Positions 1-46,029 of a stretch of DNA of 64,000 nt are shown here, piece by piece. Position 1 is the stretch's first letter. Every line of letters begins with the position of its first letter. The notes under the pieces were generated by a model. It saw only the letters and a list, made by a program, of their open reading frames with translations. It was not told where the DNA came from and searched no databases. Made by a program: the position numbers and the translations under genes. The DNA comes from Aphelenchoides besseyi (lineage: Eukaryota; Nematoda; Chromadorea; Rhabditida; Aphelenchoididae), in the NCBI GenBank assembly GCA_024699855.1, contig JAMPIQ010000002.1:11594001-11658000 (forward strand), given 5' to 3'.

Positions 1-878
1 TTGACAGTCGTATGAGTTTTTGGTGGATCGTATTGGTGGCTAGTGGTGTCTTCCGTTGGCTGATCAAATTTTTGATTGATCTCAACGTTCGTATTCATTT
101 CAAACGTTCGACGGTTTCAGTTTTTTTAAATTTCTGTTTTTATTACTTGCAAGCAGACAAAGTGATTTCTTACCGACTATCTTTATTGCGATATACTTGG
201 TCGTCGTGCGCGTTCTTTTTGGCAATTGAATTGCGCAGGTGCTCGTCTTCTTTCTACAGCATCGAATGTCAAAACCCATAACACAAATCTAATGGTTATT
301 GCTAACATCAAAACAGCGACTTTGGATTCTTGCAATTCCGATATCATTTCGTTTTAGCCAACCAAAAACAACGTCCAGAACAGTGTGCTAGCTTTCAATC
401 ACATTTGCTAATGAACGTTGATCAAAACCAATTGCACTTCTTCATCTCCGATTAAGTTCCAACTTTGAATCTAAGCTTCATTCCGTAACTTATTGCAAAG
501 TCGAACTTCAAAATCGATAGCTCGAAACTAATGGCTGTTGATGATATCAAAACTGCGGCTTGAACATTTTCTCGATCATTTCACTTCGACAATTGCCAGC
601 ACAGAACCAAACATCAAATTAACATAAGTGAAGAAGAAGAGTGCTTATTTCAAAAAAATGTGCGCAAATCGCTCGCACACACAGACAAACAGACAGACGG
701 TACTCACTTTCTTTAATGGGATGAGGTGCTTGTGATTTCGTAAATTCGGGTGTTGAGGCTTGATTTAAATTCACAAAGTTTTTTACGCGTGTACACTTTC
801 TTAGTCGTGATGAAGATAACGCGGACTAACACGTTAACCTGTAATTTTCAATTAATCAAATCGTATTATTTAGTCGCT
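1..878. other. Non-coding outer part of left arm
   Basis: No convincing gene. A short CA/GA-rich run lies at about 676-700. An 84-codon ORF with a hydrophobic stretch exists in the right-arm counterpart (45562-45816, +). In the left arm two one-base gaps shift its frame, which argues against it being coding. Confidence 0.5.
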
Positions 879-1452
879 ATGGCCCCGACAGGCAATCTTG
901 AATGCTCAAAAAATTCAAATGCTATTTGCCAATACGAATTGTGTCCATTTACGAACAAATTAATCACCCAGGTAAACTACTAAATTGAAACTTGCGTAAA
1001 TTTGTTTTAGCCGATTCGAGTTCGATCAGGAACTTGGTTTCACCGAACTTTTTGGTCAGTCTATTGTACTTTCACGATAATGTTAAATTATTTCAGGCAC
1101 GTCGTTTGCTGGGAATCCAAATATGGACCGGTGAGCATTCCACCAAGTTTACAAGGACTTTACGATGAAGTCAAAGGTTTGCGCAATTCAGACCAATACA
1201 ACAATTAAAAATAATTTAGCCGCTGAGAAGCCTACAATTGACTCCGAACAATTGAAGAAAGACAACACTTTTGAGGTTAGTTTTTCAAGGGTTATATTTA
1301 CCAAATTCAAATGCATCAATCTAATTTTAATGCCAACGTTGACAAATTTTTTTGTCTACCAGCAACTCCGTGGCTGCGGCGCTCCGGTGCTTTGCGAGAC
1401 TTATAAAACCTCTCATCAACGCAACAAAATTGAAGCAAGATCAAAAAGTTGA
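879..1452 (+). CDS. Small Cys/His-rich protein, possible zinc finger (left copy)
   Basis: Five exons (879-971, 1011-1054, 1097-1176, 1220-1275, 1363-1452) join in frame to a 120-residue protein, with introns of 39-87 bases. The ATG at 879 is chosen because a T-rich acceptor (ttatttag) ends five bases upstream, as at a trans-spliced start. Longer upstream reading is open but lacks this context. Cys at residues 9, 17 and 22, a His-x2-Cys near residue 46-49 and a Trp beside it suggest a treble-clef type zinc site; the spacing loosely recalls PARP-type or headcase-type fingers, but the first Cys pair is x4 rather than x2. Function is unknown. An essentially identical copy lies in the right arm. 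Confidence 0.55.
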
Positions 1453-2390
1453 TTTTTGCTCGAGAAAACCGACTGGAGATCGGTCACAAAGAAGATTACT
1501 TAAGCTTTCTCCTGGCCTGTAATTTCCTGGGAATTTTACTATAGTTTCTGTCATCAGTAGGGCTATAGGCATGAGCTTTTTGGGCTGATGTGCAGGCCAA
1601 GACAATGGCCAATGGAGTCAATTAGTGCCAGAAGTTTCAAAAATTGACAAACTTGCGTCGGCATCCAGACAATTGTCTGACACTGAAACTCAAAAAACTG
1701 GTCATTCCAGGTTGTTTAGAACATAAAAGTAGGTGTCAAATATATAAATTCGAGGGTGAGGGCACACAAAACCCTGACTGACATTGCAAAATGAGTTATG
1801 TAATGCTTGCAGTAAACTAAACGTTTTGCAAATCAGTGTGTGGGCATTATTCCATCCGTAGACATCGAACTGCGCGTAAACTTAATCTGAGTCTTTTCGC
1901 AAAAACAGCTTGTTTTCCCAGTTGTGGCGTGTTGTTCAGGAATTTTTCGGCAAATAGATTCAGTTCGTAAATTGAGGGTGTTCGGTCAGTTTAAATCCGA
2001 TTTTTGTACGGATGGCTACTTGGTTTTTAGAGCTTAAATTTATTGAATTATAGGGAAGTCGAGAAGTTTTTGCGCGATTTGCCGTTCTTATTTTCAATGG
2101 TTTGCTGTTTTAATTTAAAGCGAAAAGCTTCTAATTGATCGTATAAGTTACCGAGATCTAAACGCTAGCATTTTCAGAATTAAAAGATAGAAATTGGCTT
2201 AGTTGAGTCGGTTTTTGGATAACCTCAAGAAATAGCCGTTTTTATGACATAAATTAAATTCTGTTTGCAAGCTCCTTATTTTTTCGAGCTTCCATATTGT
2301 TTCTTTTGTTTGATTATAGCTGAATTCCCAATATTTTGACACTTTCCTAACATTGCAAATTCATTCGTTAAATTTTAGAGCTCTCCGACA
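1453..2390. other. Intergenic DNA between the two left-arm genes
   Basis: No coding signal seen. The sequence is conserved in the right arm (about 43521-44458). Between about 2100 and 2390 the two arms begin to differ more often than in the outer part. Confidence 0.5.
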
Positions 2391-2657
2391 ATGGACGTCT
2401 ATCTCCAGTTACAAGACCATGAAGGTAATGTGAATAGGCCGGTGATCTGCTCTCTTGGCAATAAGGTTTGTTTCGAAACATAATTCAGCCGAAAATTAAA
2501 CGCATTTTTCTAGGCAACACATAAGCAATTGCAAGAAGAAGTGAAGGAGGTATTTAACATCGATCCCAAACATCAACTCATCAAAGTCAATGACGAAAAC
2601 CTTAAGATTGGTGCTTTGTCGGCGGCCGGAGTTCAGAATGGGGATACGATCTTCGTG
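2391..2657 (+). other. Hypervariable ubiquitin-like exons (left copy)
   Basis: Exons 1 and 2 encode the ubiquitin-like domain. Compared with the right copy (43520 down to about 43255) they carry about 10 amino-acid replacements and 2 silent changes in 73 codons, several reversing charge. The following intron differs at only about 6 of roughly 265 bases. Confidence 0.8.
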
Positions 2658-4086
2658 GTAAGTTGATTCTTTTACAACTTATGCAAGGTTTTCGGGTTTC
2701 CAATTATTTTATAGCTATAGCATATCAACTTTTATGTCAACATCAAAGATCACATCATTATTTTTGTTAATACTTTACATCCTTTTGGGCATAATGTCCG
2801 ACATCACCCTGTTAGATTAACTTTTATGGCTGGGCGAATTTGCTAAAAAGTTTTGGTAATAGGCGCGGAAATTGCTTTTGAAATGCTACTCATTAATCAA
2901 GACAAAATTCTGTATGTTTTAGAAGCACTCAAATGTTGTTCAATGGGAAAGAATTATCAGATCTCTGAACGAAATTGCTCGAACAAGAGACATAGAAGAG
3001 CAAATCAGCACTGCCAACATCTTACGCGATTTAATTCACTTAATTACCGAGCAAAAATTTTTCCATCGCTACGGTCACTTGCTCGGCGAAAAGCTACGTA
3101 TTTCTTCTGAATTGCGTGAGTATCTTGGGGGCTCCAAGGCTACAAGGGAAGCGGGTACCAAATTGTATTTCTTTAATTGGCTTAAAGAAACGGGAAAAAT
3201 GAAGGATCTGAGGTCATTCAACGTTCATTTTGGACCAAAAGTTGGTGGTGTACACTCTGGATGCACGGCCACGATTGTCTTCGATGGAATGGACGAAAAG
3301 TATTACATAAAAACGCACCATGATGGGTCGACAGGTACATCATCAATACCGTATCGTGCACCCAGTACGTAACTATCAATCTATTTATTTATTTAACCGA
3401 CGGTTTCAGATCTGAGGGAAGTGTTCGCTTACGTATTGTTAGAAATTATTGGTCTTTGCCCAGAAACACATTTTTATGGGCCTATTCCTGGAGAAGGCAG
3501 AGGAACTCTATTCATTGCCACAAAGAGCATTTCCGAACTTGAACTCATGAACGTAATTTAAATCGTCTGTAGTTTGTTTCAAAATTCGTTGTTTAGACAG
3601 CAACACCCAAGTCCTCCAACATCAAAGATGTTATCCTTCAAATTCACATTGCTAGCTCTATTCTTTGCTTGAAAGATGTCCATGACGAGAATTGCGGTTT
3701 TTCCAATAATAGAGCGTGGATATTTGACTTTGCTGTACCCCAAGGTTTGATTTTTCACAAACATCCAACAATTCCGATTTTAAGGCTACTACAACATGGA
3801 AATGCAATTGTTCAAAAATCACAAACCTCAATGTGCCGAACCTAATATGCGAACACCAAATAAAATAAGTGCCTTTGCTCAAACGATAACGGCAAACGAA
3901 CGTATGGAATTCGGAAAGGAAATCGTGGAAACATGGAACCTTTTGGAAAATGTCGACAAGGCGGTGGAAAAAGTCACTTCAGTGAAAGAAAAAATTCGGT
4001 CAAGTGGCGGTATCATTGAACGCACTGATGATTTCGATACGTATATCCAAGGTGTCAAGAGCAACATTTTATTGTTTACCAAATAA
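2391..4086 (+). CDS. Ubiquitin-like + atypical kinase-like protein (left copy)
   Basis: Six exons (2391-2465, 2514-2657, 2923-3364, 3410-3552, 3597-3744, 3785-4086) give 417 residues with all phases matching. Residues 1-73 form a ubiquitin-like domain: a beta hairpin, then a helix, then a segment reading VNDENLKIG. Residues 180-320 look like an atypical kinase fold: GGVHSGCTATIVF, candidate ATP lysine K203 in YYIKTH, a helix beginning LREVF, hinge-like LFIATK, a catalytic-loop-like D295-x-H297-x-x-N300, and WIFDF with metal-ligand candidate D312. The pattern resembles HipA/PI4K-type kinases; a nematode family with the YYIKTH and IGL-x-P motifs is recalled, not checked. A possible trans-splice acceptor ends at 2378 and AATAAA follows the stop. 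Kinase activity is inference. Confidence 0.75.
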
Positions 4087-4370
4087 TTTTCAACTTTGTT
4101 TAATGTGAAGACGAAAATAAATTATTACAGTTTGAGTTGATTGTTTTGGTAAATATGGAGAATCAGACGAGCAGACAATCAAACCTGAATGAATAGGCTA
4201 CCTATCCACCAACAAGAAAAATAAATGATAATTGACTGTTTGCACCGTGAATCGTCTTTGCACCAACTCATCATTATTCACAACTCAGCCGCCGTCTCAA
4301 GGGGTCGCCTTAAAACCGACCAGGTTTTGGATGGTTTGAAAAACGAGACGTTTACTATTAGATCGAATTT

Positions 4371-5242
4371 TATTGGTTTGTAACGAAAATTTTGCCTGAT
4401 TGCGTCATGGGTGACCTAAATTTCGAATGAAAGAAATTGACCGGTCGGTCGGAAGTGTGTGAACGAAGTTTGGCTGTCCAGCTGCCTACTGTCCTAAGTA
4501 TGGTTGCCGTTGTAGATTAGAATTCTTTATTATCTGTTAACCGAGCATTAAACATAGTCACCGGGTGCGTTGATAGTTCGCCGCCACCCTTCGGGCAATT
4601 GGGCGATTTCGCGGGAGTAGAATGAGTGATGACGGGAGGCGAAGAACGAGTTCAGGGGCCGGCGGACATGATCGATGTCGTTGAATCGGCGTCCTCGTCG
4701 ATGCCGGAGACCTAGACGAGAGTGACCATTAATGATTGTAGACATAAAGAATTGCTTGACCGCTCGTCTCAATGTCCTCCATACGGCCATTACAAAACAA
4801 CCAATGGCCAATTCACGAGTTTATTGCGCAGGTCGATTAGCCACAGCGTTGAGAATCGTCGCTTGATGAATCGTTGACGGACGTCCTGTTCGTGGTTGAC
4901 CGGCCAAATCCTCGAGTCCATCGTCGAACTTTCTGAACCATCGACATGCCGTCCTCTCGGTGGTCATTCGCGCTCCATGTGCCGAGTTGATGATGGCAGT
5001 GGCTTTGGCGAGCGATTGATGGAGACGATATTTGTTGAGAAGCAGAAATCGCATTTGTTCACGAGTGAGGCCCATTTGACGAAATTAGTCAAGGAAACAG
5101 GAGTAGCGATGTCAAAAACAGCAGATCCAATAAATCGAATTTGACACTTCGTTTAATTTCCAATCGACCGGTCAATTTCTTTCGTTCCAATTTTAGAAAA
5201 TGCATTGCGCAATCAGACAAAATTTTCATTACAAACCAATAT
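4371..5242 (-). mobile_element. Internally deleted mariner-family element (left copy)
   Basis: The element is bounded by TA ttggtttgtaa at 4371 and its inverted form ttacaaaccaa TA at 5242, giving imperfect terminal inverted repeats of roughly 100 bases and a TA target duplication. On the minus strand, 5075-4821 encodes a mariner transposase N-terminus with the helix-turn-helix segment ending WFRKFDDGLEDLAGQPRTGR. From 4811 to 4548 the C-terminal end follows (LNSFFASRHHSFYSREIAQL). The catalytic DDE/D core between them is missing and the frame is broken, so it cannot encode a working transposase. Confidence 0.85.
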
Positions 5243-5402
5243 TAAAACCGGGATTGAAATGTTTAAAAGCTCGTAAATTAAAGGAACATCGCATTAGTGC
5301 AATAATCAAGTCACAAACAGAAGTCAATACCAGAACCCCAACCCGAATACTATGAGCAAACGAAATGAAAGACATTAAAAGGCTGAAGGTGATCGTTGAG
5401 TT

Positions 5403-7199
5403 TCAGGCGGTGGTTGTTGAAGACGCTAAAAGCGACTTGTCTTTTTCGGTTTCACAGAACTCGGCAGGTACTTTGGACGAAATACAAGAGTCGTAGTAGT
5501 GATCCAGAGAGTACGTGTAGTCGGAGTCCCAATCACGCATGAACACATTCCTCATTTTCACAACAAACGGTCGATCGATGGTCGTGTTCTGACTCACCAC
5601 AATTGCAACTCCCGTCCCGATACCCTCGAAGTAGTCGCCGCTCCAATTCGAAGTTCCTGAACATCACCGTCCATGTTGACTCCAATACGACTTACCGATA
5701 ACAACCGCCGTGTCGGTTACCAGAAACTTTTTGTGAGTTCGTCTTTCTCGTTGCATCAAGTGTTTCATGTGTTTTGGAGTGGGAACTTTGAATATCCTCT
5801 TAAACAAATCGACATCCGATCTCCTGGAGCAGTCAACTTACAACGTCAATTGAGCCGCGCGTGGGCACTTCGTTGAGCTGTTCGAGCGACTTCAGAAAGT
5901 TGAGCCCAATCTTCGGATAGTGCAATGCCGCGCAAATGATCTTCACATGAACCCCACGTAGAACGGCGGCGCGAATAGAGTTGTCGATGCGCGGCCAAAA
6001 CTCGTGTTTCTCGGCGTACAGAAACATCGGAAAATAGTCCATGACATGAATCAAAGCGACCGTTTTTGCGTTGTCGATCTCTTCGACTATAGCATCTAGA
6101 TCCCACGTTTGTTCGGGAGCTTCTTCCACCTTCGGCGAGGTCTGAAAACAACGAGTTGTGGGAACCGGGCGAACGTCAGTTACCGCAATGTAGACGTTCG
6201 TTTCGACTCCTTGATACTGGATGCGCAGCGGATTGTGCGTGTTGAATGAAAGCGGTGAACTGTGCACAATCAGCTCTTCCATTTCCTCTGCATCCCTCAC
6301 AGTCGCTGCCTTCCAATACAAACCGAAGACCTTCTCCAGCTCGCGCGCCAAACACGGACAGTCGCGGACCAAAACGCCCAACTCCAACTTCTGAACAGAC
6401 CTTATAGGCGGCTCTCTCAACGCCACACCAACCTGATTCAGCGATCTCCAGTCCAGGTTTGCTGAACCCAAATAGAAATGGCTTTCGTCGGAGATTATGA
6501 ACTTCGAGTGCATGATTCCCGTGTTGTAGATTCTCTGCAGATTCAACGAGCGTCGATCGATTGCTCCTTGTTCGTGAAGACTTCGAGCATCCGCGTTGTC
6601 TCCCCGGTCCTTGGACGGACTGTTTTCGACCACGCGAATCCGAACATTTCGATTCAGACCCGCACTCTGCAGCTCGTCGTAGATCATTTCGCCCTAAACC
6701 AGCGTTCAAGCCTCTCATCAACTGCTTACTTGGACGGAAAAGTCTTGTTGCATGGAACCCAGAACGTGCATGCCCCTCAGACTCGACTTGTAGGCCGCAA
6801 CATCGATTTTGTGTCGAGCGGTGGAGATCAGAAACTGCCACGCCTCAAAAGTCGATGGAATCGGGTACTTTGTTATGGTCAAGTTCTGCGGTACACTTTC
6901 GACGAGCGAGATTCTAAAATCGGGTTCGTGTTTGAAGTACTATCGAGGTATTCGACCTGCACGTTTGATAGCAAGTTTCCAGCGTATGAGAGTCGGTTGT
7001 TGTGATGACTTCGCGTGTAATCGAACTAATATAGTGGGTAGAGGAGCAGGCGACGAAAACACATACGATCGTGAGTAGACTGGTGATCACCTAAAGCCTC
7101 GTCAATGACTGCCATCTACTGTTCGAAAGTTACCCAAAGAATCGGACTCTGTCCACTCGAGTCGTGGACGAACGTACGCGGTTTGCTTGGCTTCTCCAT
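5403..7199 (-). CDS. PLD3/PLD4-type phospholipase D family protein (left copy)
   Basis: Same six-exon structure as the right-arm copy, about 530 residues with all splice sites kept. The N-terminus has a short cytoplasmic head and a signal-anchor segment (ITSLLTIVCVFVACSS), implying a type II membrane protein. Two H-x-K-x4-D catalytic motifs are present: HSKFIISD (6487-6510) followed by GSANLDWRS, and HKKFLVTD (5712-5735) followed by GTSNWSGDYF. These flanking words are typical of the PLD3/4 branch, whose mammalian members act in the lysosome as exonucleases; whether this one is lipase or nuclease cannot be read from sequence. Antisense ORFs over this gene are shadows. Confidence 0.9.
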
Positions 7200-7259
7200 T
7201 CGAACTGCAATTGGGTAAGCCAATGAAATGTCAGAGGAGTAAAGAAATGCGAAAAAGAA

Positions 7260-7493
7260 GTGATCGAAATTGATAAGTGCATTTTATTGTTGAACAGAAT
7301 TGCGAGTAACGATAAGAACACCACCCTGACGTCAACGACTACCGTGCAAGTGATGTTCGAGAACAATGAGCTGTTGGCGCACGTGTTGATTGTTTACGTC
7401 GTGGGTTTCGATCGATCGGAACGACTTAGCCAACTCGGCTTGGATCCCTTATCTTCTGCTTTTCTTATCAAACTGTTGGGGGGAAACGCGTGA
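7260..7493 (+). CDS. Uncharacterised 77-residue ORF at inner edge of left arm
   Basis: This ORF reads divergently from the PLD3-like gene and stops 17 bases inside the arm boundary. Its reading frame is fully kept in the right arm (38829-38596). A plausible intron (gtaag to aaaag, about 7213-7255) could extend it upstream across the PLD3 first exon on the opposite strand. No family was recognised. It may be chance, or a terminal exon truncated by the duplication. Confidence 0.25.
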   Translation: MIEIDKCILLLNRIASNDKNTTLTSTTTVQVMFENNELLAHVLIVYVVGFDRSERLSQLGLDPLSSAFLIKLLGGNA

Positions 7494-7510
7494 AATTTTG
7501 GGTCATTTGA

Positions 7511-12132: not shown

Positions 12133-14725
12133 TTATAGTAAAAGAATCGAACGTTTTCGTCTTCTGTACGTGGCGTTATCGGAACAACAAAAGCCATTAA
12201 TGCACGTATAACCTAAATTTCAAAACGTTAATCGTATTCGTTATAATCAACTACCTGAAGGACATTTCGGGTCGGTTGGATTGCACGGTCCGAATTGATC
12301 TTGTGGAGCACAGGTACCCGTTTCGAGACGATAACACTGACCACCATCAGGGCCCGAACATGCGTAACCTAAACAAAAATTCATCGAAATAAACAAAAAC
12401 AACCAACCGTCTGGACACAAACGAGTTCCTCCTTCGCCGCGAATACATGGACCGACTGGATCACCAGCAATATTCGGACAACACCATTGATTCGTAATGT
12501 CACAATTGAAGCCTGGATCCGGACACGTATTATCGGATAAACAAGGTCCATTTGAGTCGACTTGACTGCACGTTGTAAGGAGATTGGTACTGTTGGCGGC
12601 AGACGGTGGACCACAACATTGATTGTTGATGCATGCATATCCAACCGGACAAACGCCGTTAACACACGGACCGATTGCAGATGTGCCGATCGGACACACT
12701 AAATTCAAGAGTAATCAACGTATAATTGAAAACGGTGTTTTTACTCGATAATGTTGATGGACAACAAATATTGCCAGTGGTGCATGTGTAACCTTCACCA
12801 CATTTTCCACCAATACACGCACCAATCGCTTGTGACCCATCCAAACATCTCGGCGTTTGCGATGAATTCGTGCAACAAAGTCCTTGATTGCACATAAAAC
12901 CAAAGCCACATTGCCCGTTAACACAACCTCCTGCTGCTTGCGTACCATCCGGACATACTGTTAAAAACTTAGAACTCATAGCATAGAATTCAAATTACCT
13001 GTTGCCGGAACCACACGTTCACAACATAAATTGTTTCGACTACAAGCATAGCCACTACCACACCTGCCACCAATGCAATTTCCGCCTCCGTTCTCGCCAT
13101 CTGGACATCCTACAAACAGAAACTTAATAAGATGAAAAGTGAAATTGAAGAGGTACAACGAGAGCAAAAATCTGTTCATTTGTCTTCGATCGTCAACTGT
13201 TTTTAGGTTATTGGTCATTAATTTAAAACCCAGAAATAAGTGCAGTTATTTGTCGGCCGCATAGCTCAATTGGTAGTAGCGTTCGACTCCAGATCGAAAG
13301 GTTGGGTGTTCAAGTCACTCTGTGGTCAAATATCTTTTGGGTCAATTTTTTGGTTGTAAACAAAACTTTCACTTATTGTACAGCAGCTTTGTAGTACGTA
13401 AATGATTGGGCGTATTAGATACGAAAACAAAACCATTTTAAACAAACGAATTGATACACAAGAATGTTCGTTATAGAAAATGAATGTACAATATTAAAAG
13501 ACTTTTACAAGATATGCGGCATTCAGTCAGTAATAGCTTTTAAAGCCCGTGATAGATTTTCTCAGAAAGAGCTTTTATTGTTAAAGAAAGCGTGTTGTTA
13601 TGTTGAAAGAAATTCTTACCCATATTGCTATTAACGGAGTTTAACGATGACATCGAATTCATCGGATAGTATTGCTGTCGATCATCGCAATTCGAACACG
13701 GATAGGCTCCCACTGTAATGCGCAGTCGAGTGAATCGAGCTTGATTTCGAACTTACTTGGTCGTCGTGATCTCATTTGTTGAGACATATCGTCGGTTATG
13801 TAGTTGGGATAACGTTGCATCATTTGCATTCGCTGATAATAGTTGTTGTTTGGCATGTAGTTGTTGTAACTAGAAAATTGATGGAAACGAGCGGGATGAT
13901 GATGGTAATTGCGACGAGAAGGTGAGTGGTGGTGATGTTTCGGTTCGCCGATTGACATCAACATCGGACAACAAAGACTCGTTTTGTAGTCACAAACCAA
14001 TCCAGGCGGGCAACCGCCGTAATAACCGCATTTTATCGTTGAAGAAAAGCCACCGGTACAAAGCTCTTAAAATCAAAATTATCGAAACTTCAAGAATATT
14101 AGTTAGATAGGTACAAGACTATTATAACAATTGCAATAAAACCACGAAATTGCGGGATTTTATACAAAAAGAAAGAATCAGAGCTTTCAAAAGTAGTAAT
14201 GAAACTTGATAAACAACGTAAAATGATTTTCAATAGCTTCAAAGCCATTGTTTATTCTTTGCGCAATTAGTCAGAAACTGTATATGCTCGAGAGTAAACA
14301 GTCAAACTCACGTGGATCGATGGGTTTAATGGCATCTAAGGCTGAGACTCCGGCGTTGTTGATTGCATTGTTTGAGCCAACGTATCCCGGTTCGGACCAA
14401 TCATCAGAATACAATGAGCGAGGTACGTGTTTTACCGATGAGTTGACTACAAGGAATTTTGGAATGATTGGAAAATAACATACGTCGTGATGATAGTTCA
14501 ATCGTAGGATTTGTATTGATGGTAGTACAACAATAACCATTGTTACAAGTGCCCGTAATACACGGATTAGTTAGAGAACAACGACTGTATGTGCAACTTA
14601 ATTCAGCGGAAAACACGATCACTAAAATCCAAATTTAACTCGTCGTCTTAATCGAATCGACAACCTGTGGTGTATAACAAAAGATGAATGAATATCAGAA
14701 GAGGTTCCAGTTTGAGTGGTGCCAT
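12133..14725 (-). CDS. Secreted cysteine-rich repeat protein A (lustrin/EB-like)
   Basis: The ATG at 14725 starts a signal peptide (MAPLKLEPLLIFIHLLLYTT) that splices to a mature start rich in Cys. The protein then carries tandem modules of about 35-45 residues with the rhythm C-P-x-G ... G-x-C ... G-x-x-C ... C-C, broadly like lustrin or EB modules of extracellular matrix proteins, plus a His-rich segment near 13880. The last exon (after an intron at about 12252-12211) ends with the basic tail RRRKRSILLL at 12133. The reading frame that runs on past this intron and stops at 12247 is an intron read-through. Secretion and a role in cuticle, eggshell or matrix are inferred. Paralogue of the gene at 19113-22347, with which it shares module sequence and the basic tail. 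Confidence 0.75.
13255..13328 (+). tRNA. tRNA-Trp (anticodon CCA), slightly irregular D arm
   Basis: A 74-base cloverleaf. The seven-base acceptor stem GGCCGCA/TGTGGTC has two G-U pairs. The anticodon arm is TTCGA-CTCCAGA-TCGAA with anticodon CCA, the variable loop is AGGTT, and the T arm is GGGTG-TTCAAGT-CACTC. A TTTT run follows near 13335 as a Pol III terminator. The D arm reads gctc aattggtag tagc: one extra base compared with the usual form leaves three paired bases and a C-T mismatch. It lies about 40 bases upstream of a minus-strand exon, inside the span of gene A (intronic). Likely functional, though the D-arm change leaves some doubt. Confidence 0.8.
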
Positions 14726-19112: not shown

Positions 19113-22100
19113 TTAATTAAAGTCCAATAATAGCGACCGTTTTCGACGTCGGAACGATCCATCTCGACAACACATACCGCCGTACGGCGAGAATCCCGGC
19201 GGACAAGGACCGCCATTTGCTGGCATTGGCAGCTGATCTTCTGGTGCACATGTTCCCGTATTGATTCGGAAGCATTGTCCGACGCCAGAGCCGGTGCAAG
19301 CGTAACCTTCAAACAAAAAACTTATTCCTTTTTATTTCTTTTGTTTATACCTTCAGGACAAAGTCGTGTTCCTGCTGCGCCTGTAATACATGGACCGACT
19401 GGATTGCCGAGAATTTGCGGACAACACCAATTGTTTCCTGTGTCGCAAGCATAGCCAGGCTCGGGACATGAACCGTCAAGTAAACAAGGACCGTTTGAAT
19501 CGATACGATCACAAGTTACGAGCGAGCTGGTATTGCTAACTGGAGGACCACAGCATTGGTTGTTAATGCAAGTGTAACCATCAGGACAACGACCATTCAC
19601 ACATGTACCAATTGAAGTTTGACCATTGGGACAAGCTAAAGTAATCGAATGAAAGATGGTATAGAAAGATTATAAGCTTACAGTTTAATGTTGATGGACA
19701 ACAAATATTACCGGTTGTGCACGTATAGCCAGTACCGCATCGTCCTTGCATGCATGCACCAATCGCTTGTGACCCATCCAAACATCTCGGCGTTTGCGAT
19801 GAATTCGTGCAGCAAAGTCCTTGATTGCAGGTAAATCCAACACCGCACTGGTTATTCACACATGCTCCTGCCGCTTGCGTACCATCGGGACAAACCGTTG
19901 CCGGAACAACTTGAGCACAGCAAACATTGCTTCCACTGTTGCACGAATAACCAGGACCGCATTGACCAGAAACACACGATCCACTAGCCGCACCACCGCC
20001 TGGGCATGTAGAATCTGAAATATTAGACGTGTTGGAGATCTTATATCTATGTAGCATTCAAAAATGGTGCCAAAATATTCCAATTTGTGCAAAAAGTAAA
20101 GAAAAGAAAATTGTGAAATAGTAACAAACACAACGGTTGTTGGTTATTGTTCGGACAGCAGAGATTAGTTGTTGGCATGCACTGGTAGCCGGTGGCACAG
20201 GTGTTTCCACTACAACGTCCATAAGGCATCAAACCATTCGGACAAACTAAATTAGTGGTGGGTGTGCAAGTGCGTAAAAAAGTTTGTTAACTGGTGCATA
20301 TAAACTTTTTTGTTGCAAAAGCTGTTAACTAGTTTTTTACAAACAGCAAAACTGTTATCTATTCGAATACAAGTTTTGTTGAACTTTACATCACTTACCA
20401 TAATTGAAAAATTGATTGCAACGTGGACACGGGAATTGATGCACTGAAACGAAGTTGTTAATTTTCATCTTCTTTACGATAATCTGTTAGTCGTCACAGC
20501 AAAAGGATTGAGTTTGTTATCGAAACTAACTTGCACGACGTTGTTTAAATGTCTGTGCAATTCCGCTCATCGTTTCGTCGGAATGTGTTGAGTGATGTGT
20601 TGAAGGAGGAGCAAATCGGCTGCCCGGCGGAATTTTACTGCTCGAATAACGAGCGGGAAAGTGATGAGAATGTTGGAAGTGTTGATGTGCAATTGCGGCA
20701 GACGGTGGCGATGTGGTGGGCGGACTTATTGTTACTTCGCTTAACGGCAACAAAAGCGGACAACAAAGTTTGGCGTGAGTATCACAAAACAGTCCCGGTG
20801 GACATTGAATGAAACTCAAACATCGTAAATTTGACGTGAATCCAGCGGCGCAACTTGCTGTAAAAGATCAACCGCCTTGCGGAAGGTTCAAAATGAATTG
20901 AAGAGTAAAGACAACGTACATGCATCTTGTGTTGCTTTGGCTACCATAGCGTCCAATTTGTTGATATCCAACGGAGATGCAGCAGGAAGTGAAGGAGACC
21001 AATCATCAGCAATAGTTAAAAAATTTGACAGGGTTAAAGTTTTGTTAGTGGGTTTAGCATCTGGAAAAGTTAACACACAGCAAAATGATTAGGATACAAG
21101 AAAGAAAAAACAGATTTTAGAATACTTACTTGACGGAATTGTTCTAGCAATTGACGGCGAGGATGAACAACAGTAACCGTTGTTACATGTTCCCGTTGAA
21201 CAAGGATTTGATTGCGAACATTGCGAGTAAGTACAAACTACACCGCCGCCTGTATTGGCCGGTTGTCCTAAACTGGCGGCTTAGTTGCGATTGATTTGTA
21301 TGGTACTCACTAGCGACATGTTGTCGGAATGTTTTCGGATGTCCAATACATGCTTGATGTTCGAAATTAAAAGCAAAACCCTGTTGACAATGTTTCTTTA
21401 TCCATTTATGCGTTCTGAAATGTTATCATCATGAATGATACGTTGACTTCCTTTGCATTTTTGATAAACTTCATGTTGTTTGAAATCAATTAAATGACTT
21501 ACAATGGATTGCATTGTAAATAAGAACCGGCGTCAGCGACATTTGGTTGAAGACACGCTTCGGGCACGTTGCAACTCCCTTGTTCTCGTGCTTGAAGATT
21601 TTGCTCTAAACCCGAAAGTTTTTTGTTTATTATAATCGAGGTTTTACCGCAAATGATCGGACCAGTGGGCATTTTAGCCGATTTTTTTGGATGTTGTTGA
21701 GCATCGTTACTGTCGGGAAATTGATAACCCATTGGGCCAAAAGATTTCAACGAAATTTGAGATGTTGCATCGACATGTGGAGCTTGTTGATTGTGAGCTT
21801 CTTGATTTGATGAAATCGTATTTGTGTTTGAATGGGACTTCACAACCCAAACTCCATCGGGATTAGATGGACTGAAATCGTTTTTTTGAAAACTTTCAAT
21901 TCTATTTCGTGTGATTAATTGCGCAAACAGCTAAATGTTCGCACGGGAGTGATAGTCACGCCTTGCGTCAATCACAATGGACAAGCGATGGACGATCGGG
22001 CTCGAACAAAGCGGCTTAAGTTTACTTACTCGCTTGCTTCGCAATGCAAAAAGAACTTGGTTTGTTTGCCGCCGATATTAACATCAGCAGAACCCATCTT

Positions 22101-37635: not shown

Positions 37636-38579
37636 ATCTAAACATACAAAATAAAAGCCAACTATCGACGTCACTTACTCTGTACAGGAGAAGGCAAAAA
37701 TGGTATGTTCCAAGCATAAAAGTTTCTCCGCTCAGAAACCTAAAACCATAAAATTGAGCTTCATTCTTCGTTTCCAATCAATCTTCCAACATAACGCGAG
37801 AGCAGATTGCTGTTTGACTGTGCGCCAAACTCGTGTCCGCAAAATCGACAAACAAATCGAAAAGAAAACACAATAATCCGAGAAGTTTTTCAAATCATTT
37901 TGTTCACTGCGAGCATTAACTGGAGCATTAACGGAAGAACATATGTCCCTGAGTCAACATATACATTTTGATTTTAGAGTAAAAGTAGTCTGCTCAATGC
38001 ACTTGTAATAAGATTGCGATTAGTTCTTAAGGAACTTAGTTTCACTGAAGTTTAAATTACTTCAATCAAAAACAATTGAATTATAGGAAAAATGATATAA
38101 AAAGAATGCTTTTTGTGTTTTCAATGCTAAAAAACCGTACAGTCACCTACCTCTTCAGACATTTCGTAAATTAAGCTTTAAATGTCATTCGATTATTGAG
38201 TTCTTAGGAGTTCACTGTTCGTACACTTACTATCCACTAATTGAAACAATAGTCAGCACTAATCTAACAGTTTTAAATAAACGTAACAAGAGCAGTTTGT
38301 TTCGCTAATAACGACTGATTGAATCATCACTCCTGCATTAAAGACAGCCCATAGAGTGTCCTTAGATATGTCATAGAGAGCGCTAAAATTGTGGAGTTGA
38401 GTCTACTGCTCATGTGGAATCCTTTACAAAGGTTGTTTAGTGAATGAGATCGCTAATCTGTCATTTAGCATTAAAACTCATTTGTACACAACAAAAATTC
38501 TATTGTCAAGTTATCAACAAATACCCAAATCGCAGATTGTGGAATTTTCTTAAAATCTATTGCAAAATTTGTACAAAAT
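37636..38579. other. Unique DNA between KIDINS220 start and right arm
   Basis: Contains a probable 5' non-coding exon of the KIDINS220 gene (ending about 37680). The remainder is AT-rich without a recognisable gene. It abuts the arm boundary at 38580. Confidence 0.45.
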
Positions 38580-38595
38580 CAAATGACCCAAAATT

Positions 38596-38829
38596 TCACG
38601 CGTTTCCCCCCAACAGTTTGATAAGAAAAGCAGAAGATAAGGGATCCAAGCCGAGTTGGCTAAGTCGTTCCGATCGATCGAAACCCACGACGTAAACAAT
38701 CAACACGTGCGCCAACAGCTCATTGTTCTCGAACATCACTTGCACGGTAGTCGTTGACGTCAGGGTGGTGTTCTTATCGTTACTCGCAATTCTGTTCAAC
38801 AATAAAATGCACTTATCAATTTCGATCAC
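38596..38829 (-). CDS. Uncharacterised 77-residue ORF (right-arm counterpart)
   Basis: Reverse-complement copy of the ORF at 7260-7493 with the frame unbroken. Same doubts as the left copy: no family, and it may be chance. Confidence 0.25.
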   Translation of the reverse strand: MIEIDKCILLLNRIASNDKNTTLTSTTTVQVMFENNELLAHVLIVYVVGFDRSERLSQLGLDPLSSAFLIKLLGGNA

Positions 38830-38889
38830 TTCTTTTTCGCATTTCTTTACTCCTCTGACATTTCATTGGCTTACCCAATTGCAGTTCGA

Positions 38890-40686
38890 ATGGAGAAGCC
38901 AAGCAAACCGCGTACGTTCGTCCACGACTTGAGTGGACAGAGTCCGATTCTTTGGGTAACTTTCGAACAGTAGATGGCAGTCATTGACGAGGCTTTAGGT
39001 GATCACCAGTCTACTCACGATCGTATGTGTTTTCGTCGCCTGCTCCTCTACCCACTATATTAGTTCGATTACACGCGAAGTCATCACAACAACCGACTCT
39101 CATACGCTGGAAACTTGCTATCAAACGTGCAGGTCGAATACCTCGATAGTACTCCAAACACGAACCCGATTTTAGAATCTCGCTCGTCGAAAGTGTACCG
39201 CAGAACTTGACCATAACAAAGTACCCGATTCCATCGACTTTTGAGGCGTGGCAGTTTCTGATCTCCACCGCTCGACACAAAATCGATGTTGCGGCCTACA
39301 AGTCGAGTCTGAGGGGCATGCACGTTCTGGGTTCCATGCAACAAGACTTTTCCGTCCAAGTAAGCAGTTGATGAGAGGCTTGAACGCTGGTTTAGGGCGA
39401 AATGATCTACGACGAGCTGCAGAGTGCGGGTCTGAATCGAAATGTTCGGATTCGCGTGGTCGAAAACAGTCCGTCCAAGGACCGGGGAGACAACGCGGAT
39501 GCTCGAAGTCTTCACGAACAAGGAGCAATCGATCGACGCTCGTTGAATCTGCAGAGAATCTACAACACGGGAATCATGCACTCGAAGTTCATAATCTCCG
39601 ACGAAAGCCATTTCTATTTGGGTTCAGCAAACCTGGACTGGAGATCGCTGAATCAGGTTGGTGTGGCGTTGAGAGAGCCGCCTATAAGGTCTGTTCAGAA
39701 GTTGGAGTTGGGCGTTTTGGTCCGCGACTGTCCGTGTTTGGCGCGCGAGCTGGAGAAGGTCTTCGGTTTGTATTGGAAGGCAGCGACTGTGAGGGATGCA
39801 GAGGAAATGGAAGAGCTGATTGCGCACAGTTCACCGCTTTCATTCAACACGCACAATCCGCTGCGCATCCAGTATCAAGGAGTCGAAACGAACGTCTACA
39901 TTGCGGTAACTGACGTTCGCCCGGTTCCCACAACTCGTTGTTTTCAGACCTCGCCGAAGGTGGAAGAAGCTCCCGAACAAACGTGGGATCTAGATGCTAT
40001 AGTCGAAGAGATCGACAACGCAAAAACGGTCGCTTTGATTCATGTCATGGACTATTTTCCGATGTTTCTGTACGCCGAGAAACACGAGTTTTGGCCGCGC
40101 ATCGACAACTCCATTCGCGCCGCCGTTCTACGTGGGGTTCATGTGAAGATCATTTGCGCGGCATTGCACTATCCGAAGATTGGGCTCAACTTTCTGAAAT
40201 CGCTCGAACAGCTCAACGAAGTGCCCACGCGCGGCTCAATTGACGTTGTAAGTTGACTGCTCCAGGAGATCGGATGTCGATTTGTTTAAGAGGATATTCA
40301 AAGTTCCCACTCCAAAACACATGAAACACTTGATGCAGCGAGAAAGACGAACTCACAAAAAGTTTCTGGTAACCGACACGGCGGTTGTTATCGGTAAGTC
40401 GTATTGGAGTCAACATGGACGGTGATGTTCAGGAACTTCGAATTGGAGCGGCGACTACTTCGAGGGTATCGGGACGGGAGTTGCAATTGTGGTGAGTCAG
40501 AACACGACCATCGATCGACCGTTTGTTGTGAAAATGAGGAATGTGTTCATGCGTGATTGGGACTCCGACTACACGTACTCTCTGGATCACTACTACGACT
40601 CTTGTATTTCGTCCAAAGTACCTGCCGAGTTCTGTGAAACCGAAAAAGACAAGTCGCTTTTAGCGTCTTCAACAACCACCGCCTGA
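38890..40686 (+). CDS. PLD3/PLD4-type phospholipase D family protein (right copy)
   Basis: Six exons (38890-38955, 38999-39132, 39176-39359, 39396-40247, 40291-40393, 40433-40686) with matching phases encode 530 residues, close to mammalian PLD3. A signal-anchor near residue 23-45 is followed by a luminal CYQTCRISLVESVP start. HKD motif 1 is at 39579-39602 and HKD motif 2 at 40354-40377, each with the family's GSAN/GTSNW follow-up. All introns are 35-45 bases. The copies in the two arms differ at very few positions (for example one Val/Ala), so either the duplication is recent here or gene conversion keeps them alike. The membrane topology predicts a luminal, perhaps lysosomal, catalytic domain. 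Confidence 0.92.
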
Positions 40687-40847
40687 AACTCAACGATCAC
40701 CTTCAGCCTTTTAATGTCTTTCATTTCGTTTGCTCATAGTATTCGGGTTGGGGTTCTGGTATTGACTTCTGTTTGTGACTTGATTATTGCACTAATGCGA
40801 TGTTCCTTTAATTTACGAGCTTTTAAACATTTCAATCCCGGTTTTAA

Positions 40848-41645
40848 TATTGGTTTGTAATGAAAATTTTGTCTGATTGCGCAATGCATTTTCTAAAATT
40901 GGAACGAAAGAAATTGACCGGTCGATTGGAAATTAAACGAAGTGTCAAATTCGATTTATTGGATCTGCTGTTTTTGACATCGCTACTCCTGTTTCCTTGA
41001 CTAATTTCGTCAAATGGGCCTCACTCGTGAACAAATGCGATTTCTGCTTCTCAACAAATATCGTTTCCATCAATCGCTCGCCAAAGCCATCATCAACTCG
41101 GCACATGGAGGGCGAATGACCACCGAGGGACAGCATGTCGATGGTTCAGAAAGTTCGACGATGGACTCGAGGATTTGGCCGGTCAACCACGAACAGGACG
41201 TCCGTCAACGATTCATCAAGCGACGATTCTCAACGCTGTGGCTAATCGACCTGCACAATAAACTCGTGAATTGGCCATTGGTTGTTTTGTAATGGCCGTA
41301 TGGAGGACATTGAGACGAGCGGTCAAGCAATTCTTTATGTCTACAATCACTAATGGTCACTCTCGTTTAGGTCTCCGGCATCGACGAGGACATCGGCTCC
41401 TGAACTCGTTCTTCGCCTCCCGTCATCACTCATTCTACTCCCGCGGAATCGCCCAATTGCACGAACGGTGGCGGCGAACTATCAACGCACACGGTGACTA
41501 TTTTTGATGCTCGGTTAACAGATAATAAAGAATTCTAATCTACAACGGCAACCATACTTAGGACAGTAGGCAGCTGGACAGCCAAACTTCGTTCACACAC
41601 TTCCAACCGACCGGTCAATTTCTTTCATTCCAAATTTAGGTCACC
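40848..41645 (+). mobile_element. Degenerate mariner element (right copy), one end deleted
   Basis: Counterpart of 4371-5242. The inner end with TA ttggtttgtaa is kept at 40848. The other end has been lost in a deletion: after gtcacc (41645) sequence jumps directly to gagttggtg, so 140 bases present in the left arm (4270-4409), including the terminal repeat end, are absent. The helix-turn-helix coding part (41014-41292) has a frameshift, and a further 27-base gap lies in the C-terminal part (41271-41507). Non-functional. Confidence 0.85.
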
Positions 41646-41828
41646 GAGTTGGTGCAAAGACGATTCACGGTGCAAACAGTCAATTATCATTTATTTTTCT
41701 TGTTGGTGGATAGGTAGCCTATTCATTCAGGTTTGATTGTCTGCTCGTCTGATTCTCCATATTTACCAAAACAATCAACTCAAACTGTAATAATTTATTT
41801 TCGTCTTCACATTAAACAAAGTTGAAAA

Positions 41829-43520
41829 TTATTTCGTAAACAACAAAATGTTGCTCTTGACACCTTGGATATACGTATCGAAATCATCAGTGCGTTCAAT
41901 GATACCGCCACTTGACCGAATTTTTTCTTTCACTGAAGTGACTTTTTCCACCGCCTTGTCGACATTTTCCAAAAGGTTCCATGTTTCCACGATTTCCTTT
42001 CCGAATTCCATACGTTCGTTTGCCGTTATCGTTTGAGCAAAGGCACTTATTTTATTTGGTGTTCGCATATTAGGTTCGGCACATTGAGGTTTGTGATTTT
42101 TGAACAATTGCATTTCCATGTTGTAGTAGCCTTAAAATCGGAATTGTTGGATGTTTGTGAAAAATCAAACCTTGGGGTACAGCAAAGTCAAATATCCACG
42201 CTCTATTATTGGAAAAACCGCAATTCTCGTCATGGACATCTTTCAAGCAAAGAATAGAGCTAGCAATGTGAATTTGAAGAATAACATCTTTGATGTTGGA
42301 GGACTTGGGTGTTGCTGTCTAAACAACGAATTTTGAAACAAACTACAGACGATTTAAATTACCTTCATGAGCTCAAGTTCGGAAATGCTCTTTGTGGCAA
42401 TGAATAGAGTTCCTCTGCCTTCTCCAGGAAGGGGCCCATAAAAATGTGTTTCTGGGCAAAGACCAATAATTTCTAACAATACGTAAGCGAACACTTCCCT
42501 CATATCTGAAATCGTCGGTTAAATAAATAGACTGATAGTTACTTACTGGGTACACGATACGGTCTTGATGATGTACCTGTCGGCCCATCATGGTGCGTTT
42601 TTATGTAATACTTTTCGTCCATTCCATCGAAGACAATCGTGGCCGTGCATCCAGAGTGTACACCACCAACTTTTGGTCCAAAATGAACGTCGAATGACCC
42701 CAGATCCTTCATTTTTCCCGTTTCTTTCAGCCAATTAAAGAAATACAATTTGGTACCCGCTTCCCTTGTAGCCTTGGAGCCCCCAAGATACTCACGCAAT
42801 TCAGAAGAAATACGTAGCTTTTCGCCGAGCAAGTGATCGTAGCAATGGAAAAATTTGTGCTCGGTAATTAAGTGAATTAAATCGCGTAAGATGTTGGCAT
42901 TGCTGATTTGCTCTTCTATGTCTCTTGTTCGAGCAATTTCGTTCAGAGATCTGATAATTCTTTCCCATTGAACAACATTTGAGTGCTTCTAAAACATACA
43001 GAATTTTGTCTTGATTAATGAGTAGCATTTCAAAAGCAATTTCCGCGCCTATTATCAAAACTTTTTAGCAAATTCGCCCAGCCATAAAAGTTAATTTAAC
43101 AGGGTGATGTCGGACATTATGCCCAAAAGGATGTAAAGTATTAACAAAAATAATGATGTGATCTTTGATGTTGACATAAATGTTAATATGCTATAACTAT
43201 AAAATAATTGGAAACCCGAAAACCTTGCATAATTTGTAAAAGAATCAACTTACCACGAAGATCGTATCCCCATTCTGAACTCCGGCCGCCGACAAAGCAC
43301 CAATCTTAAGGTCTTCGTCATTGATTTGGATGAGTTGATGTTTGGGATCGATGTTAAAGACCTCCTTCACCCGCTTTTGCAATTCTTCATCGGTTGCCTA
43401 AAGAAATGCACTTAATTTTCGGCTGAATTATGTTTCGAAACAAACCTTATTGCCAAGAGAGCAGATCACCGGCCTATTCACATTACCTTCATGGTCTTGT
43501 AACTGGAGATACAAACGCAT
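41829..43520 (-). CDS. Ubiquitin-like + atypical kinase-like protein (right copy)
   Basis: Same six-exon layout and length (417 residues) as the left copy, with every splice site intact. The candidate ATP lysine, the D-x-H-x-x-N loop, the WIFDF aspartate and the C-terminal helical tail (about the last 100 residues) are unchanged. The copies differ mainly at the N-terminus: this one starts MRLYLQ rather than MDVYLQ and reads ATDEELQKR rather than ATHKQLQEE. About nine further replacements occur in exon 3, including Arg-to-Cys, Gly-to-Asp and Ile-to-Arg. Exons 5 and 6 are identical at protein level. Both copies appear able to make protein, with possibly different partners for the ubiquitin-like head. 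Confidence 0.75.
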
Positions 43521-44458
43521 TGTCGATAAACTCTAAAATTTAACGAATGAATTTGCAATGTTAAGAAAGTGTCAAAATATTGGGAATTCAGCTATAATCA
43601 AACAAAAGAAACAATATGGAAGCTCGAAAAAATAAGGAGCTTGCAAACAGAATTTAATTTATGTCGTAAAAACGGCAATTTCTTGAGGTTATCCAAAAAC
43701 CGACTCAACTAAGCCAATTTCTATCTTTTAATTCTGAAAATGCTAGCGTTTAGATTTCGATAACTTATACGATGAACTAGAAGCTTTTCGCTTTAAATTA
43801 AAACAGCAAACCATTGAAAATAAGAACGGCAAATCGCGCAAAAACTTCTCAACTTCCCTATAATTCAATAAATTTAAGCTCTAAAAACCAAGTAGCCATC
43901 CGTACAAAAATTGGATTTAAACTGACCGAACACCCTCAATTTACTAACTCAATCTATTTGCCGAAAAATTCCTGGACAACACGCCACAACTGGGAAAACA
44001 AGCTGTTTTCGCGAAAAGACTCAGATTAAGTTTACGCGCAGTTCGATGTCTACAGATGGAATAATGCACACACACTGATTTGCAAAACGTTTAGTTTACT
44101 GCAAGCATTACATAACTCATTTTGCAATGTCAGTCAGGGTTTTGTGTGCCCTCACCCTCGAATTTATATATTTGACACCTACTTTTATGTTCTAAACAAC
44201 CTGGAATGACCAGTTTTTTGAGTTTCAGTGTCAGACAATTGTCTGGATGCCGACGCAAGTTTGTCAATTTTTGAAACTTCTGGCACTAATTGACTCCATT
44301 GGCCATTGTCTTGGCCTGCACATCAGCCCAAAAAGCTCATGCCTATAGCCCTACTGATGACAGAAACTATAGTAAAATTCCCAGGAAATTACAGGCCAGG
44401 AGAAAGCTTAAGTAATCTTCTTTGTGACCGATCTCCAGTCGGTTTTCTCGAGCAAAAA
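43521..44458. other. Intergenic DNA in right arm
   Basis: Partner of 1453-2390. No coding signal. Divergence from the left arm is concentrated in the part nearest the ubiquitin-like exons. Confidence 0.5.
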
Positions 44459-45032
44459 TCAACTTTTTGATCTTGCTTCAATTTTGTTGCGTTGATGAGA
44501 GGTTTTATAAGTCTCGCAAAGCACCGGAGCGCCGCAGCCACGGAGTTGCTGGTAGACAAAAAAATTTGTCAACGTTGGCATTAAAATTAGATTGATGCAT
44601 TTGAATTTGGTAAATATAACCCTTGAAAAACTAACCTCAAAAGTGTTGTCTTTCTTCAATTGTTCGGAGTCAATTGTAGGCTTCTCAGCGGCTAAATTAT
44701 TTTTAATTGTTGTATTGGTCTGAATTGCGCAAACCTTTGACTTCATCGTAAAGTCCTTGTAAACTTGGTGGAATGCTCACCGGTCCATATTTGGATTCCC
44801 AGCAAACGACGTGCCTGAAATAATTTAACATTATCGTGAAAGTACAATAGACTGACCAAAAAGTTCGGTGAAACCAAGTTCCTGATCGAACTCGAATCGG
44901 CTAAAACAAATTTACGCAAGTTTCAATTTAGTAGTTTACCTGGGTGATTAATTTGTTCGTAAATGGACACAATTCGTATTGGCAAATAGCATTTGAATTT
45001 TTTGAGCATTCAAGATTGCCTGTCGGGGCCAT
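44459..45032 (-). CDS. Small Cys/His-rich protein, possible zinc finger (right copy)
   Basis: Reverse-complement copy of 879-1452, with the same five exons and the same acceptor site just before the ATG at 45032. The predicted 120-residue protein is the same as in the left arm as far as I compared. Function unknown; the zinc-site idea rests on the Cys and His-x2-Cys spacing only. Confidence 0.55.
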
Positions 45033-46029
45033 AGCGACTAAATAATACGATTTGATTAATTGAAAATTACAGGTTAACGTGTTAGTCCGCGTTATCTTCA
45101 TCACGACTAAGAAAGTGTACACGCGTAAAAAACTTTGTGAATTTAAATCAAGCCTCAACACCCGAATTTACGAAATCACAAGCACCTCATCCCATTAAAG
45201 AAAGTGAGTACCGTCTGTCTGTTTGTCTGTGTGCGAGCGATTTGCGCACATTTTTTTGAAATAAGCACTCTTCTTCTTCACTTATGTTAATTTGATGTTT
45301 GGTTCTGTGCTGGCAATTGTCGAAGTGAAATGATCGAGAAAATGTTCAAGCCGCAGTTTTGATATCATCAACAGCCATTAGTTTCGAGCTATCGATTTTG
45401 AAGTTCGACTTTGCAATAAGTTACGGAATGAAGCTTAGATTCAAAGTTGGAACTTAATCGGAGATGAAGAAGTGCAATTGGTTTTGATCAACGTTCATTA
45501 GCAAATGTGATTGAAAGCTAGCACACTGTTCTGGACGTTGTTTTTGGTTGGCTAAAACGAAATGATATCGGAATTGCAAGAATCCAAAGTCGCTGTTTTG
45601 ATGTTAGCAATAACCATTAGATTTGTGTTATGGGTTTTTGACATTCGATGCTGTAGAAAGAAGACGAGCACCTGCGCAATTCAATTGCCAAAAAGAACGC
45701 GCACGACGACCAAGTATATCGCAATAAAGATAGTCGGTAAGAAATCACTTTGTCTGCTTGCAAGTAATAAAAACAGAAATTTAAAAAAAACTGAAACCGT
45801 CGAACGTTTGAAATGAATACGAACGTTGAGATCAATCAAAAATTTGATCAGCCAACGGAAGACACCACTAGCCACCAATACGATCCACCAAAAACTCATA
45901 CGACTGTCAAACAGAAAAGCACTAATGCAACGAACAGTATTGGTGTCGCTTAGTTATATAGATGATCACGATTTACTTTAGGGCGAATTGGGCGGAGAGA
46001 AACCCGCCGATTCGTTGGCAATCAAACGG
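45033..46029. other. Outer part of right arm and its unique flank
   Basis: Up to 45910 this pairs with bases 1-878 of the left arm. An 84-codon plus-strand ORF (45562-45816) with one hydrophobic stretch is open here but frame-shifted in the left arm. From 45911 the DNA has no partner in the window. Confidence 0.45.

Follow-up and report, generated by a model that had tools for sequence, protein, structure and literature searches.

Kinase-like proteins headed by a ubiquitin-like (UBL) domain have been described in plants and ciliates. In plants, the type II PI4-kinase domain of the PI4K-gamma (UbDK-gamma) proteins is accompanied by zero to two UBL domains. According to the available part of that account, the lipid product is not made by the UBL-headed enzymes and several members work as protein kinases: in vitro, RPN10 and UFD1 are substrates of PI4K-gamma-4, which requires its UBL for UFD1 binding (PMC4986951). 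The same text calls the UBL domain unique to plants, while the excerpt on ciliate type II PI4-kinases reports an N-terminal UBL there too (PMC3823935). A further arrangement is found in the Crinkler (CRN) proteins, where UBL headers recombine at a junction with tails, some of them kinase tails, and for which the accessible text gives the view that signal peptides are lacking (PMC5289972). Here, we analyse a gene at positions 2391..4086 (+) of a 64,000-nucleotide stretch of the genome of Aphelenchoides besseyi, a tylenchine nematode by its taxonomy record (contig JAMPIQ010000002.1, positions 11,594,001 to 11,658,000; hereafter the window). Its 417-residue product is probably a kinase of atypical type within the protein-kinase-like superfamily, on the side of HipA and the PI3/4-kinases, with an integral UBL head, and it is one of a multigene family.

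The nematode protein resembles the plant PI4K-gamma and ciliate PI4KII proteins in combining a UBL with a domain of atypical kinase type, on the PI3/4K/HipA side (in the parts of PMC4986951 and PMC3823935 considered here). It differs from them in that no PF00454 model recognises its kinase part, the head is separated from the kinase by a helical middle region, and the genes form a large, partly clustered family.

Conserved residues of the kinase-like region

The gene was modelled as six exons with five GT...AG introns of 40 to 265 bp, spliced from the window DNA, which leave an open frame of 417 residues that ends with the stop in exon 6. A protein database search returned a sequence 100% identical over 417 aa, the GenBank entry 'hypothetical protein M3Y98_00317000 [Aphelenchoides besseyi]'. 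Both the extent of the protein and the numbering of K203, D295-V-H297-D-E-N300 and D312 are therefore as the original prediction, made from the DNA letters, had given them. Below, this protein is P0001, a relative from Acrobeloides nanus is P0002, and P0003 is a paralogue of P0001 that corresponds to locus L027.

A kinase fold is characterized by a β3 lysine, an α-C glutamate, a catalytic aspartate, and a metal-binding asparagine and aspartate. The corresponding set (Lys, Glu, Asp...Asn five apart, metal Asp) is present in the nematode family. According to the model and the family alignment, exon 3 (2923..3364, +) covers the end of the UBL, the helical middle region (about residues 76-165, with an FFxxY motif in predicted structure and alignment) and a kinase-like N-lobe with K203 (codon 3310..3312). 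Exon 4 (3410..3552, +) encodes a predicted α-C-like helix bearing E224 (codon 3418..3420), followed by strands. Profile comparison and conservation place the putative catalytic loop D295-x-H-x-x-N300 (codons 3675..3677 and 3690..3692) and the metal-site D312-F (codon of D312, 3726..3728) in exon 5 (3597..3744, +), and exon 6 (3785..4086, +) supplies a C-terminal part that is helical in the predicted structures.

In an alignment of 11 family members, 18-48% identical to P0001, K203, E224, Y228 and K385 alone are invariant; D295, N300 and D312 are kept in all ten rows that extend to the catalytic region. A wider alignment has 43 rows, made up of 40 loci together with P0001, P0002 and P0003 (the last repeating L027), with gapped rows dropped for each count. 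Here K203 is kept in 31/32, E224 in 31/33, D295 in 30/31, H297 in 20/31, N300 in 31/31 and D312 in 28/28, counts which are not independent events since many rows are near-copies of one another. The exceptions to the conserved K/E/D/N/D set are the broken loci L021 and L022, together with L035, where the model is spliced wrongly at this position and the unspliced frame reads D. D312 is followed by F in 24 of 28 rows and by L in four; the next residue is never G (0/28).

The 11-sequence alignment has 20 columns with conservation of at least 90%, and these include four of the five residues singled out in the original prediction (P = 1.9e-5, or P = 1.3e-4 when draws are limited to K/D/H/N residues). 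Conservation supports the predicted kinase-type active-site set for K203, D295, N300 and D312 but not for H297, which varies. E224, the likely partner of K203, was absent from the residues named and is nevertheless invariant in the 11 rows.

Profile and structure comparisons

A profile of 22 sequences covering residues 165-417 was compared by hhalign with panels of PI3/4-kinases, APH, HipA, Fam20 and PI4K2. The PI3/4-kinase panel comprised eight sequences, six of them joined by eye from exons of the same genome and two taken from the PDB. It matched (P 2.2e-5, score 39.5) over a stretch that opens where the E224 helix ends and closes with D312-F, and within which D, H, N and D keep their register; the best of 100 targets with shuffled columns scored only 20.4, and reversing the profile gave 16.8. 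APH-type kinases (15 frames, two the same) matched at P 0.0019 with a score of 31.0 (0/99 shuffles as good), again with the loop and D312 in register. The HipA panel (31 rows, five repeats) gave P 0.034 and a score of 23.4 (0/93 shuffles as good), and the aligned segment was the E224 helix when realigned and the catalytic loop when unrealigned. The Fam20 profile was near shuffle level (3/100 as good), and two animal PI4K2 sequences scored 20.6 out of register, with 1/100 shuffles as good. For scale, P runs from 1.5e-5 to 0.85 when undisputed kinase-fold families are compared with each other in the same set-up.

Single sequences scored above the best of 120 decoy reading frames in six of eight cases for PI3/4K, in 2/15 for APH (the same frame twice) and in 1/4 for Fam20, the lone Fam20 sequence without alignment at the catalytic loop; no HipA row (0/31) and neither PI4K2 sequence (0/2) did so. 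This comparison is biased in favour of a match, because the decoys were pre-filtered to lack the D-4-N...D pattern and some are perhaps not genes.

The nematode region thus shares with the PI3/4-kinases (type III PI4K, PI3K, PIKK; PF00454) a D-x-H-x-x-N loop followed by D-F. It departs from them in lacking the DFG glycine (HIDFG), in a histidine that is not fixed, and in a lysine region that remains unmatched, as does the Pfam model: PF00454 gave no match at E up to 10 for P0001, the 11 members or their consensus. With HipA (PF07804) it shares a helix, E..YxLLExxGxGP, which aligns with NEyxxxxLAxxxGxxVP of HipA; it differs in being eukaryotic and UBL-headed, in the single-row result above, and in the absence of PF07804 from the Pfam results for P0001, the 11 members and the consensus. 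No kinase family rose above cut-off for this part in Pfam or NCBIfam, where P0001 had one match far below it (17.1 of 1000 bits) and one of the 11 members matched a homoserine kinase at E 0.007. PADLOC, run on the family consensus, found nothing.

Two AlphaFold2 models have a mean whole-model predicted local distance difference test (pLDDT) score of 43.7 and 45.1, and the kinase part of both is of low confidence. No kinase is among the best 50 Foldseek matches listed for either model, while four HipA entries appear as weak structural matches to the C-terminal half of the P0003 model. The predicted HipA/PI4K-type spacing is supported by the in-register PI3/4-kinase profile and, weakly, by these matches; its DRHxxN histidine is not fixed. 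Two other candidates were discarded. A cyclic AMP-AMP-GMP synthase appeared in a whole-sequence PDB search at E 0.57, at chance level like the other rows, and C-terminal-binding protein rows (E 0.07 over the kinase part with profile A2) were gone from the best 60 rows with the larger alignment A5.

The ubiquitin-like head

The head is encoded by exon 1 (2391..2465, +) and exon 2 (2514..2657, +), which runs through residue 73. Structure models and Foldseek predict a ubiquitin (beta-grasp) fold whose first strand begins at residue 2. PF00240 leaves P0001 alone unmatched, matches three of the 11 members (best E 0.0019) and meets the family consensus at 25.4 bits, which equals the cut-off of 25.4. 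The N-terminal UBL proposed at the outset is borne out by the predicted fold and by this consensus. A C-terminal Gly-Gly after the UBL fold is absent: the head passes from ...DTIFVKHSN directly into the following domain. The arrangement of a UBL head and a putative catalytic tail that recombine at their junction recalls the Crinklers, as far as they are covered in the text cited above (PMC5289972). However, the Crinkler header PF20147 meets the family consensus only at E 4.1 (8.7 bits, cut-off 24.6), and the Pfam results hold no nuclease family.

A multigene family with exchanged heads

Aphelenchoides besseyi is a parasite of rice. Searching its genome (47.4 Mb, 31 contigs) with three members returned roughly 41 loci with E no higher than 0.05, distributed as 10 on C1, 18 on C2 and 13 on C3, with groups of five at C2:11.77-11.81 Mb and at C3:4.45-4.47 Mb. 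The total is approximate, as a single weak exon match is all that marks some loci and stops interrupt some. From the 40 loci fetched, diverse stop-free members were modelled with a purpose-written spliced aligner.

A second copy lies within the window at 41832..43520 (-). Its spliced model (L018) has 417 aa and the same exon lengths, and its DNA is 96.5-99.3% identical to the first copy in exons 3-6 and 90-93% in exons 1-2. Both copies sit inside an inverted duplication, whose arms at 1..7510 (+) and 38579..45910 (-) are 98.2% identical in two aligned blocks and about 31 kb apart; the duplication touches the left edge of the window. Between the two genes, the body shows 12 non-synonymous and 6 synonymous changes (non-synonymous rate dN 0.015, synonymous rate dS 0.028), and the head 12.5 and 6.5 (dN 0.076, dS 0.158). 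In the L033-type subfamily, dN/dS is 0.46-0.76 across all 10 pairs of five loci, one of which (L066) has an in-frame stop in its model. These values indicate rapid change under mild constraint, the catalytic residues being retained.

Another paralogue, L017 (C2:11800200-11802300), carries an L064/L065-type head joined in intron 2 to a window-type kinase body. In the window gene this intron spans 2658..2922 (+; 265 bp), and the L017 head differs as far as a breakpoint within it. Positions 190-517 of L017 (head exons and start of intron 2) are 89% identical to L064, positions 532-1841 match the window gene at 98.4% DNA identity, and the 5′ flank (1-223) is again like the flank of the window gene (75%). 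Judged from these sequence comparisons, one joint of the exchanged piece is in intron 2 and the other boundary may lie near the start codon. From the table of head identities we used only the L017, L064 and L065 values, alongside the DNA matches; the 45-residue split applied to P0001 and L018 falls too early. The chimera indicates that heads and bodies recombine.

Outside the species, protein database searches found one relative, P0002 of Acrobeloides nanus (352 aa, 48% identical in the alignment), so that P0001, P0002 and P0003 were the only proteins recovered; this search requires shared 5-residue words, which makes absence elsewhere weak evidence. Acrobeloides nanus is free-living and, by its taxonomy record, also a tylenchine nematode. 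The P0002 gene model has no equivalent of P0001 residues 249-319, the catalytic-loop stretch, which may reflect a gene-prediction error or missed exon, or a truncated protein. Among viral contigs searched with one pattern, 114 pattern matches contained no relative. In open-licence PubMed Central (PMC) papers we found no description of this family, of nematode UBL kinases or of eukaryotic HipA-like kinases, in agreement with the earlier remark that an animal counterpart is uncharacterised. The domain order has precedents elsewhere; neither the kinase type nor the host group nor the expansion by head swapping turned up in those papers.

Proposed mechanism and alternative explanations

Beyond the sequence and the predicted head fold, we infer every step of the mechanism. 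K203, paired with E224, would hold ATP, D295 would act as the catalytic aspartate, and N300 and D312 would bind metal. The head, which lacks a terminal Gly-Gly and continues directly into the following domain, is presumably not conjugated. By analogy with the plant UBL-headed kinases, it would instead dock the enzyme on a partner, for example a protein of the ubiquitin pathway, and the kinase part would phosphorylate the bound protein, the product being a phosphorylated protein and not a lipid. Duplication and head exchange may have diversified the family so that its members meet different partners. A wider proposal, which we hold to be possible but doubtful, sees a previously undescribed animal branch of atypical kinases intermediate between HipA and the PI3/4-kinases, whose bodies and UBL heads were separately duplicated and recombined at the intron 2 joint, giving tylenchine nematodes a large and rapidly changing repertoire of targeted kinases, for instance in intracellular defence or genetic conflict.

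Among other explanations, the most serious is a kinase-fold pseudoenzyme, a protein that would retain its fold and nucleotide pocket in order to bind or scaffold and would act by competition or recruitment without phosphotransfer. We regard this as rather unlikely. The family has no known activity, the DFG glycine is missing in all 28 rows with the site, H297 is lost in 11/31, and one subfamily evolves fast (dN/dS as above). On the other hand, pseudokinases usually lose the residues equivalent to K203, D295, N300 and D312, all of which are retained here apart from the broken or mis-spliced loci. At the opposite extreme, the region might be no kinase at all but a lineage-specific helical domain with a D/N/D motif conserved by coincidence. 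The lack of a confident fold, the sub-threshold Pfam and NCBIfam kinase families and the weak HipA matches of the model would fit this idea, which becomes highly improbable in view of the PI3/4K and APH profiles, which align in register at one and the same site better than any shuffle (HipA more weakly), and of the conservation of four of five residues named in advance.

Two further explanations start from the architecture, and we give little credence to either. A true type II PI4-kinase of the plant and ciliate kind, diverged past recognition, would have the identical order of UBL and catalytic domain (PMC4986951 and PMC3823935, in the parts available). This likeness, which the original prediction had mentioned, holds for the architecture alone: the two PI4K2 sequences align out of register, PF00454 does not match, an ordinary PI4KII is found elsewhere in the same genome (L008), and the catalytic segment fits the PI3/4K type better. 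A Crinkler-like effector or conflict gene, spreading with a UBL header that can be exchanged and a catalytic tail, appears marginally less plausible still. It would account for the L017 exchange and agrees with the UBL headers, kinase tails and reputed lack of signal peptides in the available CRN text (PMC5289972), but the PF20147 and nuclease results and the relative in free-living Acrobeloides nanus speak against it.

If the favoured assignment to an atypical kinase is correct, about 41 loci of one unnamed candidate kinase are present in a single 47-Mb animal genome. Non-canonical kinases readily escape notice, since they are missing from every profile library. A third, differently built animal case beside plants and ciliates would suggest a repeated origin of UBL-headed atypical kinases. 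The exchanged head of L017 provides a natural experiment on head specificity, and the Acrobeloides nanus relative a simple protein for testing.

Neighbouring sequence

A mariner-like element of about 870 bp lies at 4371-5241 of the window, 285 bp 3′ of the stop of the kinase gene. Its terminal inverted repeats are 80.8% identical over 99 columns, and its transposase frame is broken and begins MGLTREQMRFLLLNKYRLHQSLAKA..., which we take to resemble a mariner helix-turn-helix. A segment of 140 bp (4270-4409), including the left end of the element, is partnerless in the second copy. The duplicated segment also holds a 284-aa frame at 5833-6687 (-) with HSKFIISDE...GSANLDWRS, presumably a phospholipase-D-type motif. 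Elsewhere, a direct repeat of about 560 bp, 72% identical, occupies 12406-12962 and 19349-19899.
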